The translations under genes were made by a program, and so were the position numbers. Of a stretch of 64,000 nt of DNA, positions 33,749-41,899 are shown piece by piece (the first letter of the stretch is position 1; each line of letters starts with the position of its first letter). The notes beneath the pieces were generated by a model that worked only from the letters and a program-made list of their open reading frames with translations, did not search any database and was not told the DNA's origin. This DNA is from Desulfuromusa kysingii. GTDB lineage: Bacteria > Desulfobacterota > Desulfuromonadia > Desulfuromonadales > Geopsychrobacteraceae. The stretch spans positions 1 to 64,000 of the forward strand of contig NZ_FNQN01000003.1 of the NCBI RefSeq assembly GCF_900107645.1. Reading direction: 5' to 3'.

Positions 33749-34630
33749 ATGAAAAAGACCGTAGCTATTTTAATTCTTGGCTTTTTGATGACGGTTAGCC
33801 CTGTGTTTGCGTTGACCGTTGTAACATCAGATGATGGTAATGCTTTGGCTGGTGGAATTCTTGGAGCAGGGATTACAACTGTGGGGACCGTGACTTACAC
33901 TGGCAGTTCGTCCTCTTCCGGTTTTTTTGCTGATGGCCTATCTTCAGGCATTGGAATGGAAACTGGAATTATTTTGACAAGTGGTGACGCAATGCTTGCT
34001 GCTGGACCTAACATGGAAGATGACTCAACAGGTGTTGTTGGGACAGGTTATGATGCTGATTTAGCCCCTCTTATTCCAGGCTATAGCATTCAGGACACAT
34101 CTTTTTTACAGTTTGATTTCGAAACTGCAGGCGGTGATTTATACTTCAATTACGTGTTTGCTTCTGAAGAGTATAATGAGTATACCAACTCCGAATTTAA
34201 CGATGTCTTTGGCTTTTTTCTGGATGGAGTGAATATTGCTTTAATCCCAGGGACTAACACTCCTGTGTCGATCAATAATGTAAATGGTGGGAATCCTTAC
34301 GGAGCAGGTGCAAGTCATGCTGAGTTTTTCAACAATAATGATTTAAGCGATGGTGGCCCTTTTTATGACCTTGGGTATGATGGTTTTACTGATGTGTTTA
34401 CGGCCTTTGCCCTTGACTTGTCTGCTGGAATACATACCATAAAACTTGCAATAGCTGATGCAGGAGATAGTATTCTTGATTCAGCAGTTTTTATTCAGGG
34501 TGGGTCTTTTTCAGATACTCCTGTTGATCCAGGAAACGGAACAGCTCCGGTTCCTGAACCCGGTACCATTATTCTGTTGGGCAGTGGTCTGCTGGGTTTA
34601 GCGTTTGCGCGTAGAAAAATAAAAAAATAA
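33749..34630 (+). CDS. Choice-of-anchor L domain protein with PEP-CTERM sorting signal
   Basis: Exported surface protein of 293 residues. A signal peptide (ends VFA) is followed by the choice-of-anchor L domain: GILGAGITTVG, GIILTSGDAMLAAGPN, a segment FLQFDFETAGGDLYFNYVFASEEY, then FNDVFGFFLDG and the IKLAIADAGDSILDSAVFI end. The tail is a PEP-CTERM signal: PVPEPGTIILLGSGLLGLAF plus a basic end (ARRKIKK), recognised by exosortase. The exosortase and its exopolysaccharide cluster must be elsewhere. ATG 33749 has AAAGGAG eight bases upstream. Single gene behind a sigma-54 promoter, with a terminator after it. Confidence 0.93.
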   Translation: MKKTVAILILGFLMTVSPVFALTVVTSDDGNALAGGILGAGITTVGTVTYTGSSSSSGFFADGLSSGIGMETGIILTSGDAMLAAGPNMEDDSTGVVGTGYDADLAPLIPGYSIQDTSFLQFDFETAGGDLYFNYVFASEEYNEYTNSEFNDVFGFFLDGVNIALIPGTNTPVSINNVNGGNPYGAGASHAEFFNNNDLSDGGPFYDLGYDGFTDVFTAFALDLSAGIHTIKLAIADAGDSILDSAVFIQGGSFSDTPVDPGNGTAPVPEPGTIILLGSGLLGLAFARRKIKK

Positions 34631-36251: not shown

Positions 36252-36839
36252 ATGAGAACGATCATTTTGGCTTCAACCAGCCCCTATCGTCAGCAACTTT
36301 TGCAGCAGTTAGACTTACCCTTTATTGCGGTAGCTCCTACATTTATTGAAGAAATTGATCCTAACGTTGCCCCGGCATTATTGGTTCGTCATCTTGCCCT
36401 TGGCAAGGCCCAGAGTTTAGCAGAGACATACCCTGACGCCTTGATTATTGGGGCAGATCAAGTTTTTGTTGATCAGAGACGACGGCCCCTCGGTAAGCCG
36501 GGGAATTTGCAGGCTGCTTTCCAGCAATTAAAACAGATGGTCGGACGAACCCACAGTTTCTATACTGGATTGACCTTGCTCGACAGCCGCAGTGGTGTTG
36601 TCCAGGTTGACTATGCCACTTATTCGGTCACTTTTCGGCAACTGAGCGATGATCAGATTTTTAATTATTTGCAGCGTGAAAAACCATTCGATTGTGCAGG
36701 CTCTTTTAAAATTGAAGGGCTTGGAATTGCTCTGATGGAGAAGATGTCCGGAGAAGATTATAATTCTTTGATCGGTCTGCCGTTAATAAAGTTGGTCAGC
36801 ATGTTGGCGGTGGCCGGAGTTAACATCCTGGAATCTTAG
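36252..36839 (+). CDS. maf: Maf/YceF-family nucleotide pyrophosphatase
   Basis: House-cleaning enzyme that hydrolyses modified nucleoside triphosphates. The 195-residue protein has the Maf signature ASTSPYRQQLL, then DALIIGADQVF (catalytic Asp), RRPLGKPGN, the TGLTLLDS strand and KPFDCAGSFKIEGLG. SPYR plus the FDCAGSFKIEG sequence favours the YceF (7-methyl-GTP) subgroup over the dTTP/UTP subgroup. ATG 36252 follows AAAGGA. Next downstream is the tandem-riboswitch leader, with no clear terminator between, only a promoter. Confidence 0.9.
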   Translation: MRTIILASTSPYRQQLLQQLDLPFIAVAPTFIEEIDPNVAPALLVRHLALGKAQSLAETYPDALIIGADQVFVDQRRRPLGKPGNLQAAFQQLKQMVGRTHSFYTGLTLLDSRSGVVQVDYATYSVTFRQLSDDQIFNYLQREKPFDCAGSFKIEGLGIALMEKMSGEDYNSLIGLPLIKLVSMLAVAGVNILES

Positions 36840-36878
36840 AAGATGAAGATTTTTTCATTTCGGGGGTTGATTTTTTTC

Positions 36879-36906
36879 TTGAATCTCAATACTATTGAAA
36901 TATAAG
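36879..36906 (+). promoter_or_regulatory. Promoter of the tandem-riboswitch transcript
   Basis: TTGAAT (36879-36884), a 16-bp spacer and TATAAG (36901-36906), with TATAAT also at 36907-36912. It would start transcription close to 36914, just before the first aptamer. Confidence 0.45.
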
Positions 36907-36921
36907 TATAATTAGCGCATA

Positions 36922-37012
36922 GCTATCTACCGAAAGGGCAAAGCTGGAGTAATCCGGTGACGCAAAGCCACGGATCCTGTTTTTCAGGACAGCCGGGTTG
37001 CCGAAGAAGATT
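36922..37012 (+). promoter_or_regulatory. GEMM-I cyclic dinucleotide riboswitch, copy 1
   Basis: The GEMM-I (c-di-GMP-I) consensus is present: AAAGGGCAAAGC, a P1b stem closed by a GTAA tetraloop (GNRA), then GACGCAAAGCCACGG and a second stem (ATCCTG/CAGGAC), ending CAGCCGGGTTGCCGAAG. The base that distinguishes ligands (position 20, the middle G of GGG by my alignment) is G, favouring c-di-GMP over 3',3'-cGAMP. The 3' strand GTTGCCGAAG (36997-37006) is exactly complementary to CTTCGGCAAC (37061-37070) in the following terminator. Confidence 0.92.
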
Positions 37013-37053
37013 CAGCGGACTTCTTCAAGCCTTTTGTAACTATGTCTTGGGAA

Positions 37054-37088
37054 ACGCTCACTTCGGCAACGGGGTGAGCGTTTTTTTT
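37054..37088 (+). terminator. Terminator of riboswitch 1
   Basis: An 8-bp stem (37054-37061 with 37074-37081) followed by eight Ts. The base of the loop, CTTCGGCAAC (37061-37070), can pair with the aptamer 3' strand, which would stop the terminator from forming. Confidence 0.93.
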
Positions 37089-37160
37089 GTTTATGGTATA
37101 TTTGCTAGGAGCGTATTTATCGAAATACTGCACTCAAAGGTGCGAATGAAAGACAATAAA

Positions 37161-37250
37161 TTGTCTCCGAAAGGGCAAACCCAGAGAGATCTGGGGACGC
37201 AAAGCCACGGATCCTTATTCCAGGATAGCCGGGTTGCTGAAGGGAATGTA
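37161..37250 (+). promoter_or_regulatory. GEMM-I cyclic dinucleotide riboswitch, copy 2
   Basis: Same consensus as copy 1: CGAAAGGGCAAACC, a P1b stem closed by a GAGA tetraloop, GGACGCAAAGCCACGGATCC, then CCAGGATAGCCGGGTTGCTGAAG. Position 20 is again G. The 3' strand TTGCTGAAG (37234-37242) pairs with CTTCGGCAA (37294-37302) in its own terminator, with one G-U. It lies about 235 bases downstream of copy 1 and 107 bases before the start codon of the secreted protein. Confidence 0.92.
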
Positions 37251-37283
37251 GCGTAAAAGCTCCCAGTGGTTGGTTTGTCTGGA

Positions 37284-37321
37284 ATGCGCTCATCTTCGGC
37301 AATGGTGGTGAGCGCATTTTT
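37284..37321 (+). terminator. Terminator of riboswitch 2
   Basis: A 9-bp stem (37284-37292 with 37309-37317) followed by five Ts, 36 bases before the secreted-protein start codon. The loop contains CTTCGGCAA, complementary to the aptamer 3' strand. Confidence 0.88.
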
Positions 37322-37356
37322 GTATCGACACTCACGGAAAGGCATCGGGGGTACAA

Positions 37357-40300
37357 ATGAAAAGACAGATAATCGCAACATTTATTCTACTGATTTTATT
37401 GGTCGGCACTATTTCGACCAATGTATGGGCAAAAACGGTCACTCTCTCGTGGGATGCTAGTCCAAGCAATGTCTCAGGCTACAAAATCTATTATGGGACT
37501 GAATCTACAGGTTCTTGGAATGGTTCAGGCGCTACTGAGGGGGATTCCCCTCTCTTGGTTGGAGATGTTTTGACTTATGTCATCCACGATTTACCGGATG
37601 ACATGGATCATTACTTTGCAGTGACGGCATATGACGATTCTGACAATGAGAGTACTTACTCTAATATCGTACATAGCCCGGTTATCAGCCACAGCAATAC
37701 CCCTCCTGTTCTTGCCCCGATTGGAGATTATTCAATCTCTGAGGGTGCGACTTTACATTTTAACCTTACTGCAACAGATGCCGATGGTGATCCGCTAACA
37801 TATACCGCTAGCAATTTACCGAATGGTGCCGGCATTGATGCGGCAACAGGTGATTTCAGTTGGACGCCAACCTTTGACCAGTCGCAAATTTATGCGGTGA
37901 CCTTTTCTGTCAGTGATGGCGAAAGTGTTGATACCGAAACAATTAATATTACTGTGGCAGATGTTGCGCTCAATCGAGCCCCTGAATTGTCGGCGATAGG
38001 AAACAAAGCGGTTAGTGAAGGTGAGACCCAATATATTCCTGTTAGTGCTACGGACCCTGATGGTGACAACTTGGTTTACAGTGTAACTAATTTGCCTTCA
38101 GGAGCGACATTTGATGCAGCTAATCGGATCTTCACCTGGCCGACAAATTTTGATCAGGCTGGAATTTATTCTCTCACATTTTATGTCAGTGATGGGACTT
38201 TGACTGATTCAGAGCAAATTTCCATAACCATCAACAACGTGAACCGTCCCCCGGTGCTGAATTCGGTTGGAACTCAAACTGTTGGAGAAGGAGAGCGATT
38301 GAGTTTTACCGTTAGTGGGGTTGACTCTGACGGTGATGCCTTGGATTACAGTGCTCAAAATCTGCCATCCGGAGCTACCTTTGACCCTCTCCAGCGTCTG
38401 TTCAGCTGGACCCCGTCCTTTGAGGCGTCAACAAATACCCGTGTATATCCGGTGACCTTTACGGTCAGTGACGGTTCAGCTGAAGACTCTGAAACCATTA
38501 CCCTCAACGTTACGAACGTGAACCGGGCTCCAGTCCTTGATGCGATTGGTACACAGGTCATCACTGAAGGCGATAGTGTTAATCTGGTCGTCAATGCTTC
38601 AGACCCTGATAACAATCCATTGACTTACAGTGCCAGTGGTCTTCCTGCCGGTGCAGTTTTCACCGCTGAAACCTTTTCATTTAATTGGATCCCAGGGAAT
38701 GAGCAATCGGGGAGTTATCAGGTTAAATTTGTCGTCAGTGATGGTTCTCTCAGCGATTCTGAAACTGTTACCTTTACGGTGAATAACGGGAATGAACCCC
38801 CAGTGTTTTCTGCCATTGGCGCTCAGTCTGTGGAAGAGAACTCACCCTTATCTTTTGTTGTTGTTGCCAGTGATAGCAATGGTGATAGTCTCAGCTATAG
38901 TGTGCAGGGCCTTCCGGATGGTGCTGTTTTTGATGAGTCCCAACGGCGCTTTAGCTGGACCCCGGATTATACTCAGGCCGGTAGTTTTACCGTGGTCTTC
39001 AAAGCATCTGATGGAACTCTTAGTGATGCAGAGACAGTCGAAATAACGGTGACGAATAACAATCGCTCCCCTGTTGTCAGCGGTAACCCCAACGGTTCAG
39101 CTATGGCGACTGCACGGTACTCTTTTACCCCGGTTGCCAGCGATCCTGATGGCGACCCGTTAATTTTTTCCATTACTAATAAACCTAGCTGGGCAGACTT
39201 TAGCACTGCAACGGGTGAACTGAGTGGCACTCCGACAGCAGCTCAGGTTGGCACGAGTTCTGACATTCTTATCAGTGTCAGTGACAGCATTAGTACCATG
39301 TCTCTTTCACCGTTCTCCATTGAGGTGTTGGCGTATGTGCAACAGGATTCTGATGGTGATGGTATTTTAGACCATCTGGACGCTTTTCCTGACGATAATA
39401 GCGAATGGTTGGACACTGATGGTGATCAGATCGGCAATAACAGCGATCTTGATGATGATAATGACGGGATTGCTGATGTCCGTGATGGTTTCCCGCTGGA
39501 CAGTACTCAGTCTGGATGGGTTATATCTGCTACCGCTGGGACTGGTGGATATCTGACCCCAGAAGGAGATACGGCTGTCCTTTATGGCGGATCGCAGGGG
39601 TATCAACTGACGCCAATGAGTGGATATTATATCCACGATCTATTGGTTGATAATGTTTCTGTCGGTACGGTTGACCGGTATGAATTTGAAAATATCGGTG
39701 CTCATCACACCATTACCGCTGTATTTGCGACGATTCCTACTGGTCTCAGCTATAATCCCATCTCCTCAGGGCTCATCGGAGTTGAGAGGGTTGATGGCGG
39801 TGATGATAGCAACAATTTGGTTGATAACAAGCCGAAGCAGAATCTCGATTATCAATTTAAGGTTGTTCTGCGCGATTCAGTGCCCGCGGATCAACGCAGG
39901 GTTTTCTTGATCCTTGATCAATATAAATACGAGATGGAATTTGATTCAGGACTTCTTTCCAGTGGTGCCGATTATGTATTGACTGCCCGATTAGGACCAG
40001 CTTTTTCGCATAGCTTCCATTTTAGTGCTGAAGACTCCTCTGGAAACCATATCTGGCGTTATCCTGCCAGTGGTGATTTGCCCGGGCCTGTTGTGTCTCT
40101 TCTCAACGGCAAGAATGTTGTCGGTCTCGCCGCAAAGATTAATGCGTATGCTCTCACTGCGACTGAGGCTTTCAATGATAGCCAGATCTATCGTTGGGTT
40201 CCCCAATCTGAAATCAGTGGCCATTTCGAGTTGGTTGATATTGGTGCCCCAATAGCGACGGGTGAAGGTTATGTCCTGAAGAATACCCGACAGTCGAGCT

Positions 40301-40650
40301 TGCCGAATTTCAGCCTTTATGGTGACATCAGTGAAGCCACGCATGAATTTCAAGTGCATTCAGGCTGGAATCTGATCAGTAATCCCTATGGCGGGAATGT
40401 CTCTTTGGCCGATATCGAGATCCGTTTGGGGGATGCTGACCCGGTTCCTTGGTTGACCGCCGTTGCCGATAATCTGGTTGTCGATGTTATTTATTCTTAC
40501 TTAGGGGCTGATTGGGATAATGGGAACGAATTTGCCAGTGCCGCTGGAAGTAAATCGGCAATTCTGGTTCCATGGGTAGGCTATTGGATCTATGTGAATC
40601 CGACGGATCAAGAAGCATCATTAATTATTCTAAAGCCTCTGCAGGATTAG
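37357..40650 (+). CDS. Large secreted Ig/cadherin-like repeat protein with FN3 and thrombospondin-type repeats
   Basis: A 1097-residue exported protein, probably a matrix or adhesion component. Signal peptide, ends VWA (25). Fibronectin III-like domain (about 26-108: VTLSWDASPSNVSGYKIYYG). Six Ig/cadherin-like repeats of about 90 residues (about 113-655), each with a DxDGDxLxY calcium-type sequence (DADGDPLTY, DPDGDNLVY and so on), SDG-based ends and NRxPVL linkers. Thrombospondin type 3 calcium motifs (660-715: DSDGDGILDHLDAFPDD). A glycine-rich InlB-type segment (about 720-795). A unique C-terminal domain with GWNLISNPYGG and PWVGYWIYV. No sortase or PEP-CTERM signal. Under double GEMM control; followed after 10 bases by a lipoprotein gene. 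Confidence 0.9.
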   Translation: MKRQIIATFILLILLVGTISTNVWAKTVTLSWDASPSNVSGYKIYYGTESTGSWNGSGATEGDSPLLVGDVLTYVIHDLPDDMDHYFAVTAYDDSDNESTYSNIVHSPVISHSNTPPVLAPIGDYSISEGATLHFNLTATDADGDPLTYTASNLPNGAGIDAATGDFSWTPTFDQSQIYAVTFSVSDGESVDTETINITVADVALNRAPELSAIGNKAVSEGETQYIPVSATDPDGDNLVYSVTNLPSGATFDAANRIFTWPTNFDQAGIYSLTFYVSDGTLTDSEQISITINNVNRPPVLNSVGTQTVGEGERLSFTVSGVDSDGDALDYSAQNLPSGATFDPLQRLFSWTPSFEASTNTRVYPVTFTVSDGSAEDSETITLNVTNVNRAPVLDAIGTQVITEGDSVNLVVNASDPDNNPLTYSASGLPAGAVFTAETFSFNWIPGNEQSGSYQVKFVVSDGSLSDSETVTFTVNNGNEPPVFSAIGAQSVEENSPLSFVVVASDSNGDSLSYSVQGLPDGAVFDESQRRFSWTPDYTQAGSFTVVFKASDGTLSDAETVEITVTNNNRSPVVSGNPNGSAMATARYSFTPVASDPDGDPLIFSITNKPSWADFSTATGELSGTPTAAQVGTSSDILISVSDSISTMSLSPFSIEVLAYVQQDSDGDGILDHLDAFPDDNSEWLDTDGDQIGNNSDLDDDNDGIADVRDGFPLDSTQSGWVISATAGTGGYLTPEGDTAVLYGGSQGYQLTPMSGYYIHDLLVDNVSVGTVDRYEFENIGAHHTITAVFATIPTGLSYNPISSGLIGVERVDGGDDSNNLVDNKPKQNLDYQFKVVLRDSVPADQRRVFLILDQYKYEMEFDSGLLSSGADYVLTARLGPAFSHSFHFSAEDSSGNHIWRYPASGDLPGPVVSLLNGKNVVGLAAKINAYALTATEAFNDSQIYRWVPQSEISGHFELVDIGAPIATGEGYVLKNTRQSSLPNFSLYGDISEATHEFQVHSGWNLISNPYGGNVSLADIEIRLGDADPVPWLTAVADNLVVDVIYSYLGADWDNGNEFASAAGSKSAILVPWVGYWIYVNPTDQEASLIILKPLQD

Positions 40651-40660
40651 GAGAATGACC

Positions 40661-41899
40661 ATGACAAGGTTTATCTCAATCATTATCTCTTTGTTTGCTC
40701 TGAGCTCCTTATGTCTGTTGTCAGCATGTGGTGGCGGCGGTGGCGGTGGAGACTCAAGCGGGACGAGTAAGGCTGCTGATGATGCGTCTTCTCCTGTTGT
40801 GACAATGTTGACCGGAAAAGTCGCGGATGGTTATCTTCGTGAAGCACGAGTCTTTCTTGATCGGAATAATAATCATGCATACGACAATGGAGAGCCGACG
40901 ACACAATCTACGTCTGGCGGGTCTTATCAGTTAGACGTAAGCCCTGGAGAGGGTGACCTGTATCCGGTTGTTGCTCAAGTTGTCGCCGGACAGACGGTTG
41001 ATGAAGATACCGGAACCACGGTTGCCTATAATTATCTCCTTGAGTCATCGCCTGGATATTGGCAATTTGTCTCTCCCTTGACAACTTTGGTTAAACTGGA
41101 GCGTGACAAAAATCCATCCTTTTCTCACCAGCAGGCTGAGATTGCCATCCGTTCCCGGTTCGGTATTGCCGATTCTGTCTCTCTTTTTACTGATTATATT
41201 GAACCCGAAAATGTTAATAGCGCCTTAATCACCGAACACAGTCGTACGCATAAAGCGGCACAAGTCATTGCGACCCTGATGGGGCGCGTGCGGGAGAGTA
41301 TCAGACAGAATTTAGGTGGGATTATTGGTGCGACTGAACAGTCGCTGGTCTCTTATATGGTGAGTGATCAGATTCTCTTGCAGGCGGGGGTGATCGAGCA
41401 AGCCTTAAACGCCGAGCGCAATCAGGGTTCGGTTGTCGATGTCGTTGCTTTGACTAATAACATCGCTGATGCAATAAATACCGACAGGTTGGATGCTGAG
41501 GCGCTGGCTCTTTATGAGCAGCGGTTGGAGCAGAACTTTGAAACCTGGGATATGTCTCCTCCCAGTATCCAGAGTCAATATCCTCCCGCAGATGATACTG
41601 CATCCGTGGATGTCGTTGTTTCCTTGTCTTTTGATGAGTCACTCGATGAGACCTTATTGAGCAACAACATTGTTGATCTCTCCGGTCCTAATGGATCGGT
41701 GTCCGGGGTTTTGAATTATGATCGTGAATCCCTGAGTATCTCTTTCACTCCGAGTCAGCTGCTTATCCCTTTCAGTCGCTATCAGGTGACAGTAAAAGGG
41801 GAATTAGCGGACGCTCTTGGCAACTCGTTAGGGGATGATGTGAGCTGGAGTTTCACAACAATTTTTGACCAGGTTCCACCACCGCTACCTGATTTTTGA
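40661..41899 (+). CDS. Putative lipoprotein with carboxypeptidase-regulatory-like and Big_5 domains
   Basis: A 412-residue exported lipoprotein: hydrophobic signal, lipobox LLSAC (Cys23), then a seven-glycine run as flexible linker. An N-terminal domain with GKVADGYLREARVFLDRNNN resembles carboxypeptidase regulatory-like folds. A helical middle (about 125-285) follows, then a C-terminal Ig-like SbsA/Big_5 domain (SIQSQYPPADDTASVDVVV, TVKGELADALGNSLGDDVSW). ATG 40661 is preferred to 40655 because AGGAG is at proper distance only from it. The gap of 10 bases to the large secreted protein means both are under GEMM control. The job may be to anchor or partner that protein; this is inference. Confidence 0.8.
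   Translation: MTRFISIIISLFALSSLCLLSACGGGGGGGDSSGTSKAADDASSPVVTMLTGKVADGYLREARVFLDRNNNHAYDNGEPTTQSTSGGSYQLDVSPGEGDLYPVVAQVVAGQTVDEDTGTTVAYNYLLESSPGYWQFVSPLTTLVKLERDKNPSFSHQQAEIAIRSRFGIADSVSLFTDYIEPENVNSALITEHSRTHKAAQVIATLMGRVRESIRQNLGGIIGATEQSLVSYMVSDQILLQAGVIEQALNAERNQGSVVDVVALTNNIADAINTDRLDAEALALYEQRLEQNFETWDMSPPSIQSQYPPADDTASVDVVVSLSFDESLDETLLSNNIVDLSGPNGSVSGVLNYDRESLSISFTPSQLLIPFSRYQVTVKGELADALGNSLGDDVSWSFTTIFDQVPPPLPDF

Follow-up and report, generated by a model that had tools for sequence, protein, structure and literature searches.

Two c-di-GMP-I riboswitches in series, probably acting as transcriptional OFF switches, with terminator apices complementary to their own aptamers

We propose that in Desulfuromusa kysingii a gene encoding a large surface protein with Ig repeats has in its leader a tandem of two complete c-di-GMP-I transcriptional OFF switches, an assignment that we consider likely. 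In our model the A strand at the 3′ end of each aptamer (GTTGCYGAAG), which holds the ligand-pairing C, is complementary to the T element at the apex of the terminator that follows (CTTCGGCAAY). Without ligand, A would pair with T once T has been made, opening the top of the hairpin at its nucleation site and allowing RNA polymerase to read on. When c-di-GMP is bound, A would be locked in the aptamer, leaving T free, so that the hairpin would zip and transcription would stop. Both units would have to be passed for expression, which would make repression deeper and steeper than that exerted by one unit. Although we infer the ligand, the direction of its effect, the kinetics and the steepness of these predicted OFF switches, the OFF logic, already suggested in the earlier note on this DNA, is the best-supported reading, since many units of the class retain the pairing, which corresponds to the OFF mechanism of Cd1, as given in the accessible part of PMC9262584.

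Organization of the locus

The window, by which we mean the whole stretch of 64,000 nucleotides that was analysed, contains only two RNAs at or above the Rfam gathering threshold, both of them c-di-GMP-I aptamers and placed in series. The features of the locus and of the genes behind it are as follows.

36928..37006, + strand: c-di-GMP-I (GEMM-I) aptamer, copy 1 (RF03168 67.9 bits, gathering 65.9; RF03167 60.3 bits)
36997..37006, + strand: A strand of copy 1 (A1), GTTGCCGAAG; 3′ end of P3, ligand-pairing C and 3′ side of P1; exact reverse complement of T1
37003..37026, + strand: hairpin GAAGAAG/CTTCTTC in the linker, partly overlapping A1; present in the minimum free energy fold
37051..37084, + strand: intrinsic terminator 1; 15 bp stem, GCAA tetraloop, T run; −22.8 kcal/mol
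37061..37070, + strand: T element of terminator 1 (T1), CTTCGGCAAC; complementary to A1
37165..37242, + strand: c-di-GMP-I aptamer, copy 2 (RF03167 70.8 bits, gathering 59)
37233..37242, + strand: A strand of copy 2 (A2), GTTGCTGAAG, read from the sequence
37282..37319, + strand: intrinsic terminator 2; T run; −20.8 kcal/mol; stem kept in 17 family tandems
37294..37303, + strand: T element of terminator 2 (T2), CTTCGGCAAT; complementary to A2 with two G-U pairs
37357..40650, + strand: open reading frame of the presumed controlled gene, 1097-aa protein (He_PIG 1.8e-70, 6 stretches; fn3 2.1e-4, below the curated cut-off)
40655..41899, + strand: open reading frame of the next gene, a Big_5 domain protein (Pfam Big_5 1.4e-14), starting 5 nt downstream

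P2 is capped by a GUAA tetraloop in copy 1 and by GAGA in copy 2, and both copies have GGGCAAA, with G at the selectivity position, and GTTGC, with the C that pairs with the ligand; the two bases are G20 and C92 in Vc2 numbering. The Rfam label UAU for copy 1 was considered as a hint to the ligand and rejected, as in our own reading of the Rfam alignment copy 1 has the GGC bases at those pocket sites that distinguish the GGC from the UAU model. Terminator 1 starts 44 nt and terminator 2 39 nt past the end of its aptamer, neither overlapping it, so that each aptamer has its own terminator downstream and the tandem has two expression platforms. A stricter terminator scan picked up terminator 1 and missed terminator 2, and a search of 36820-37400 gave no sigma-70-like promoter.

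The 1097-aa protein, probably secreted or surface-bound, has putative cadherin-like and Ig (He_PIG) repeats as well as a weak match to fn3, and the Big_5 gene possibly belongs to the same operon. Near the riboswitch locus, at 33749-34630, lies a gene for a PEP-CTERM protein (Pfam 3.3e-7). The host genome (3.74 Mb, 27 contigs) has 25 GGDEF matches.

Complementarity between aptamer and terminator

A1 (GTTGCCGAAG) and T1 (CTTCGGCAAC) form ten Watson-Crick pairs out of ten, and A2 (GTTGCTGAAG) and T2 (CTTCGGCAAT) are likewise paired at all ten positions, two of them as G-U. Within terminator 1, T1 begins with 5 nt of the upper 5′ arm, runs through the GCAA tetraloop and ends with 1 nt of the 3′ arm. 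Allowing at most one mismatch, the two strands of the window together contain 13 instances of CTTCGGCAAC, where 3.9 would be expected; A1, T1, A2 and T2 account for four of them. Several statements of the earlier note can be judged from these data. Its two c-di-GMP-I aptamers with GNRA tetraloops are borne out by the Rfam scores above gathering and by the GUAA and GAGA loops on P2, its terminator behind each aptamer by the hairpins at 37051-37084 and 37282-37319, both with T runs, and its exact complementarity in copy 1 by the ten A1-T1 pairs. The single G-U that it gave for copy 2 is correct for the 9-mer it considered and becomes two over 10 nt, and the complementary terminator loop does include GCAA but reaches beyond it on both sides, into the upper 5′ arm and by a single base into the 3′ arm, for which reason we speak of the apex. 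Its argument for selection from the changed base of aptamer 2 is weak, this being a one-sided change of C-G to U-G; selection is better argued from the conservation of the terminator hexamer and from a few two-sided changes.

Related units and the tandem arrangement

RF03167 matches were found in 12 of 14 genus genomes at E 0.001 and, among the matches listed, in 41 of 44 family genomes (1e-8) and 211 of 244 sampled class genomes (1e-10). Our survey comprises 239 distinct units, each with 100 nt or more of downstream sequence, drawn from 215 loci by an nhmmer search with 31 genus seeds, by which distant units may have been missed; units with less downstream sequence and some listed matches (e.g. 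G037:C32:33, G010:C261 and G001:C79) lie outside it. The 60 class-level regions and 22 automatic loci are among the best scoring, so that the rates given here are valid for high-scoring units, and the map of loci to families was assembled by hand. Units in which an independent hairpin follows the aptamer were called OFF-type, and those whose hairpin uses the aptamer 3′ strand ON-type, giving 112 OFF-type units, 72 ON-type units, 5 of both types and 50 unclassed units with no called terminator. An independent downstream terminator is thus present in 117 of the 239 units (OFF-type plus both), 116 of these terminators being distinct.

Among the loci are 29 distinct tandem pairs, 20 of them in the host's own family, and the spacing between copies, 237 in the window, ranges from 221 to 243 across nine tandems of the genus. 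Behind 14 of the 20 own-family tandems the protein has, by eye, an N-terminus like that of the window protein. T has been lost from one family copy 1 (L038) and is degraded in three family copy 2s (L009, L011 and L017; genomes G012, G009 and G010), each of which has an extra ON-type terminator made from the aptamer 3′ strand. The leaders of L009 and L011 precede a pilin-like protein (GFTLVE) rather than an Ig/fn3 protein, and the first listed open reading frame downstream of L017 is of neither type. Copy 2 of these three loci looks like a switch being rewired.

We aligned 17 of the 20 own-family tandems (alignments A3 and A4; L073, L095 and L118 left out), and 93.5% of A.T cells are paired in each copy, as against at most 67.1% when the strands are slid by 1-3 columns. 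The earlier note had suggested homologous leaders as a source of covariation; the pairing is indeed kept, but its covariation in these alignments is not significant, the observed covariation score being reached by 57 and 58 of 500 shuffles, and the percentage paired by 98 and 123 of 500. Over 75 A/T combinations the corresponding value is 0.013, uncorrected for relatedness. The weakness of the formal covariation is explained by the near constancy of the aptamer strand, which is fixed by ligand binding. Two-sided A.T changes in relatives are few, namely GTTACCGAAG with CTTCGGTAAC (L015), CTTCGGTATC (L014) and CTTCGGTATG (L031), and GTTGTCGAAG with CTTCGACGAA (L056). The lower stem of terminator 1 shows two-sided changes across the 17 tandems; at column 172 the U of T is kept in all 17 while its 3′ partner is G in nine and A in eight, and column 171 has U in 13 and C in four.

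Folding of the leader

Folding was computed with nested structures, ignoring ligand, tertiary contacts and pseudoknots. Before the 3′ arm of the terminator emerges, the fold with A.T forced is 6-9 kcal/mol better than the aptamer and downstream sequence folded apart, and at full length it is worse by 1.5 (copy 1) and 2.9 kcal/mol (copy 2). These values agree with the kinetic OFF mechanism reported for Cd1. As far as this comparison goes the folding is favourable to A.T, but unconstrained folds are better at nearly all lengths. When T is just out they reach −46.2 kcal/mol in copy 1 and −49.6 in copy 2, as compared with −44.9 and −47.4 for A.T. At full length the unconstrained values are −68.6 and −61.4 and the A.T-forced values −52.9 and −53.5, the advantage at the longest lengths being 15.7 and 7.9 kcal/mol. 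At one length of copy 2 the unconstrained and A.T-forced folds are the same (−50.4). Other apo folds would thus compete with A.T, and as the lower stem of terminator 1 lies outside A.T, blocking may be kinetic and incomplete.

One such competitor would be a third conformer ruling copy 1, with an apo state determined by two helices, the linker hairpin GAAGAAG/CTTCTTC and the long-range CGAAAGG/CCTTTTG, and A.T secondary to them. Both helices are part of the lowest-energy fold, and the linker strands are found, by eye, in all nine copy-1 units of the genus. We nevertheless consider this conformer unlikely to govern copy 1, as neither helix is kept by RNAalifold on the 17 family tandems, and neither appears in the fold of copy 2, which yet keeps A.T.

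Terminator type and the sign of the switch

The sign of the switch, as read from the terminator, goes with a single base pair of P2. The pair 21-46 is G-C in 114 of the 117 OFF-type or both-type units, including both copies in the window, and C-G in 69 of the 72 ON-type units (57 by script and 12 by eye, the script having read these 12 as G-G where inspection shows GCC with a partner G and hence C-G). OFF-type and ON-type units may represent two old aptamer lineages. We found no description, in the accessible portion of the GEMM-I literature, of a nearly perfect link between the sign of a switch and one base pair of P2.

The alternative of two ON switches, in which ligand prevents a terminator that includes the aptamer 3′ strand, as in the Geobacter pilM/cGAMP type, must be weighed at this point. 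Surface proteins are often raised by c-di-GMP, and the silencing by c-di-GMP of a presumed attachment protein, which the OFF reading entails, is unexpected and counts against it. The ON type is moreover abundant in the class (72 of the 239 units) and present in the host (the C17:118840 unit, L002), and Geobacter genes controlled by GEMM-Ib fall when cGAMP synthesis is lost (PMC6456294, in its accessible part). However, terminators of ON units start 12-21 nt before the aptamer end, whereas those of the window start 44 and 39 nt after it; no hairpin using the aptamer 3′ strand, which marks the pilM/GEMM-Ib ON switches, was called in either window copy; and both copies have G21-C46, unlike nearly all ON units. 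Two ON switches are, on this evidence, quite improbable.

OFF-type and ON-type units also stand before different genes. The 86 proteins downstream of OFF-type units include 18 with He_PIG, 17 with fn3 and 11 with a response-regulator domain, and the commonest families among the 67 proteins downstream of ON-type units are DsrE (5), cytochrome c7 (4) and cupin (4), the scan of ON-type proteins having covered 67 of 68 (L145 left out) and no proteins behind the 5 both-type and 45 unclassed units.

Conservation of the terminator apex

The case for A.T pairing as a functional constraint is supported by conservation rather than covariation. The hexamer CTTCGG, the complement of CCGAAG, is present exactly in 63 of the 116 distinct OFF-type terminators, in keeping with the expectation that relatives would conserve the pairing. 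We compared these with 205 other hairpins of the same loci (199 distinct), an imperfect control as many are weak folds within genes, with 37 hairpins from the rest of the window and with 5800 stem-pair-permuted hairpins. Exact CTTCGG occurs in none of the 72 ON-type terminators, three of the 199 same-locus hairpins, none of the 37 window hairpins and 0.6% of those permuted; at five or more matches of six the counts are 92 of 116 OFF-type terminators as against 1 of 72, 28 of 199, 3 of 37 and 12.2%, respectively, leaving 24 of the 116 OFF-type terminators with no such match. Complementarity to the last 10 nt of the aptamer gives a similar picture: a 10-nt complement, with G-U allowed, is found in 24 of 117 units and 1 of 205 control hairpins, and a complement scoring at least 16 in 73 of 117 units, 34 of 205 controls and 4.7% of permuted stems. 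In terminators matching at least four of the six bases, the entropy is 0.4-0.8 bit at the six T positions and 1.2-1.8 bit at the six positions immediately 5′, a contrast that is anchored on the motif itself, which favours low T entropy. The terminator side is less fixed than the aptamer strand, and the conservation of the apex hexamer relative to its 5′ flank argues for function.

Exact CTTCGG is found in 51 of 86 units of the host's family and 13 of 31 units of others (7 families), thus in eight families of the class, with terminator starts at −4 to 53 nt relative to the end of the aptamer; none of the OFF-type units of four further families has it. Similar OFF-type terminators (GCGYCATCTCTTT and the like) lacking the T element were seen in L025, L106, L124, L126, L070 and L079, and the linker of L025 has a CTTTGG stretch, perhaps another platform design.

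CUUCGG is a well-known stable motif. The apex might accordingly serve hairpin stability, as a UUCG-like or GNRA loop, with the match to the aptamer a by-product and the terminators constitutive or otherwise controlled. Terminator 1 is indeed closed by a GCAA tetraloop, and in L224 (Peptococcaceae) and L245 (Clostridiales) CTTCGG appears, by eye, as a UUCG tetraloop. We regard this explanation as very unlikely, because in 71 of the 73 units scoring at least 16 the centre of the complement falls 0.5-5.5 nt 5′ of the apex, so that the motif is not simply a UUCG tetraloop, and because the exact hexamer is absent from the ON-type terminators and rare in other hairpins of the same DNA.

A pattern scan of a collection of genome contigs returned 64 stretches with 68 sites, of which 33 end a GEMM-I aptamer and 35 have no aptamer by nhmmer. 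The 33 sites lie in 29 records, 24 of them Deltaproteobacteria/Desulfuromonad, 3 Synergistaceae, 1 Peptococcaceae and 1 Clostridiales. The three Synergistaceae records (L233, L269 and L276) have two GEMM-I aptamer matches each, and CTTCGGCA seems by eye to lie in the stem of the terminator 5′ arm.

Ligand choice

The selectivity position has a role in ligand choice and is A in GEMM-Ib, according to the accessible part of PMC9481103. That the switch works as described and yet senses 3′,3′-cGAMP, or both nucleotides, seems highly improbable, since both window copies have G at this position (AAAGGGCAAA), even if cGAMP signalling exists in Geobacter (PMC6456294, in part) and A stands there in 26 of the 117 OFF-type or both-type units by script. 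Two OFF-type units of the host, L003 (G000:C17:90801-90874) and L005 (G000:C9:53244-53318), have A at the selectivity position (AATAGCAAAC) and are possibly cGAMP-sensing OFF switches.

Relation to known riboswitches

The closest parallel to the OFF switches proposed here is Cd1 of the flagellar operon of C. difficile, a transcriptional OFF switch whose terminator forms from T and H and whose antiterminator pairs T with A. That antiterminator masks the ligand-pairing C (G147-C87 and C148-G86) and is transient in the apo state, later yielding to the terminator (PMC9262584, accessible part, for both points). Like Cd1, the window units are of the c-di-GMP-I class and have a non-overlapping downstream terminator, a strand of which is complementary to A across the ligand-pairing C; by analogy with G86-C87 of Cd1, the A.T helix would contain this C. 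Unlike Cd1, the window has two complete units in series. T at the hairpin apex is a feature of the window, and the comparison does not extend to the position of T in the Cd1 terminator. An apo antiterminator prevented by ligand under kinetic control was likewise predicted from the computed landscape of the GEMM riboswitch of Candidatus Desulforudis audaxviator (PMC3280964, in part), there a single switch as opposed to the tandem here. In the Geobacter pilM/GEMM-Ib switches the aptamer is homologous and a transcription terminator is used, as in the window, but the A strand is part of the terminator (PMC9262584) and A occupies the selectivity position (PMC9481103), as far as these sources are accessible, neither of which holds for the window.

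Tandem c-di-GMP-I riboswitches are themselves well documented, with 347 doublets, 12 triplets and a triple in B. thuringiensis, from which a more digital response is expected (PMC9481103), and c-di-GMP tandems are enriched in Thermodesulfobacteriota (PMC12452182); as in these, riboswitches of one class are repeated before one gene. The accessible text of these two sources mentions neither OFF logic nor apex pairing for the tandem c-di-GMP-I group, and antitermination directed at the apex was not found described for GEMM-I in the accessible literature. GEMM riboswitches precede genes for fn3 surface proteins in G. bemidjiensis (PMC2996986) and G. sulfurreducens (PMC13194489), as before the surface protein of the window, the direction of the switch not being given in the accessible parts of these reports. 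With OFF logic known from Cd1 and tandem c-di-GMP-I switches common, the locus is by kind an ordinary tandem, with a neat and widely conserved design.

Implications

For the class as a whole we put forward, as a possibility that we hold to be rather doubtful, that OFF switches block the nucleating apex and not the basal stem, that the sign can be read from the P2 pair 21-46 (G-C for OFF and C-G for ON), and that a single signal, acting through nearly identical aptamers, switches off one regulon (Ig/fn3 surface proteins and response regulators) and switches on a second. OFF and ON GEMM-I switches could then become predictable from sequence, by a rule that is testable class-wide. If apex targeting is real, hairpin nucleation would be isolated as a controlled step of intrinsic termination, for which these bacteria would provide natural constructs of both signs.
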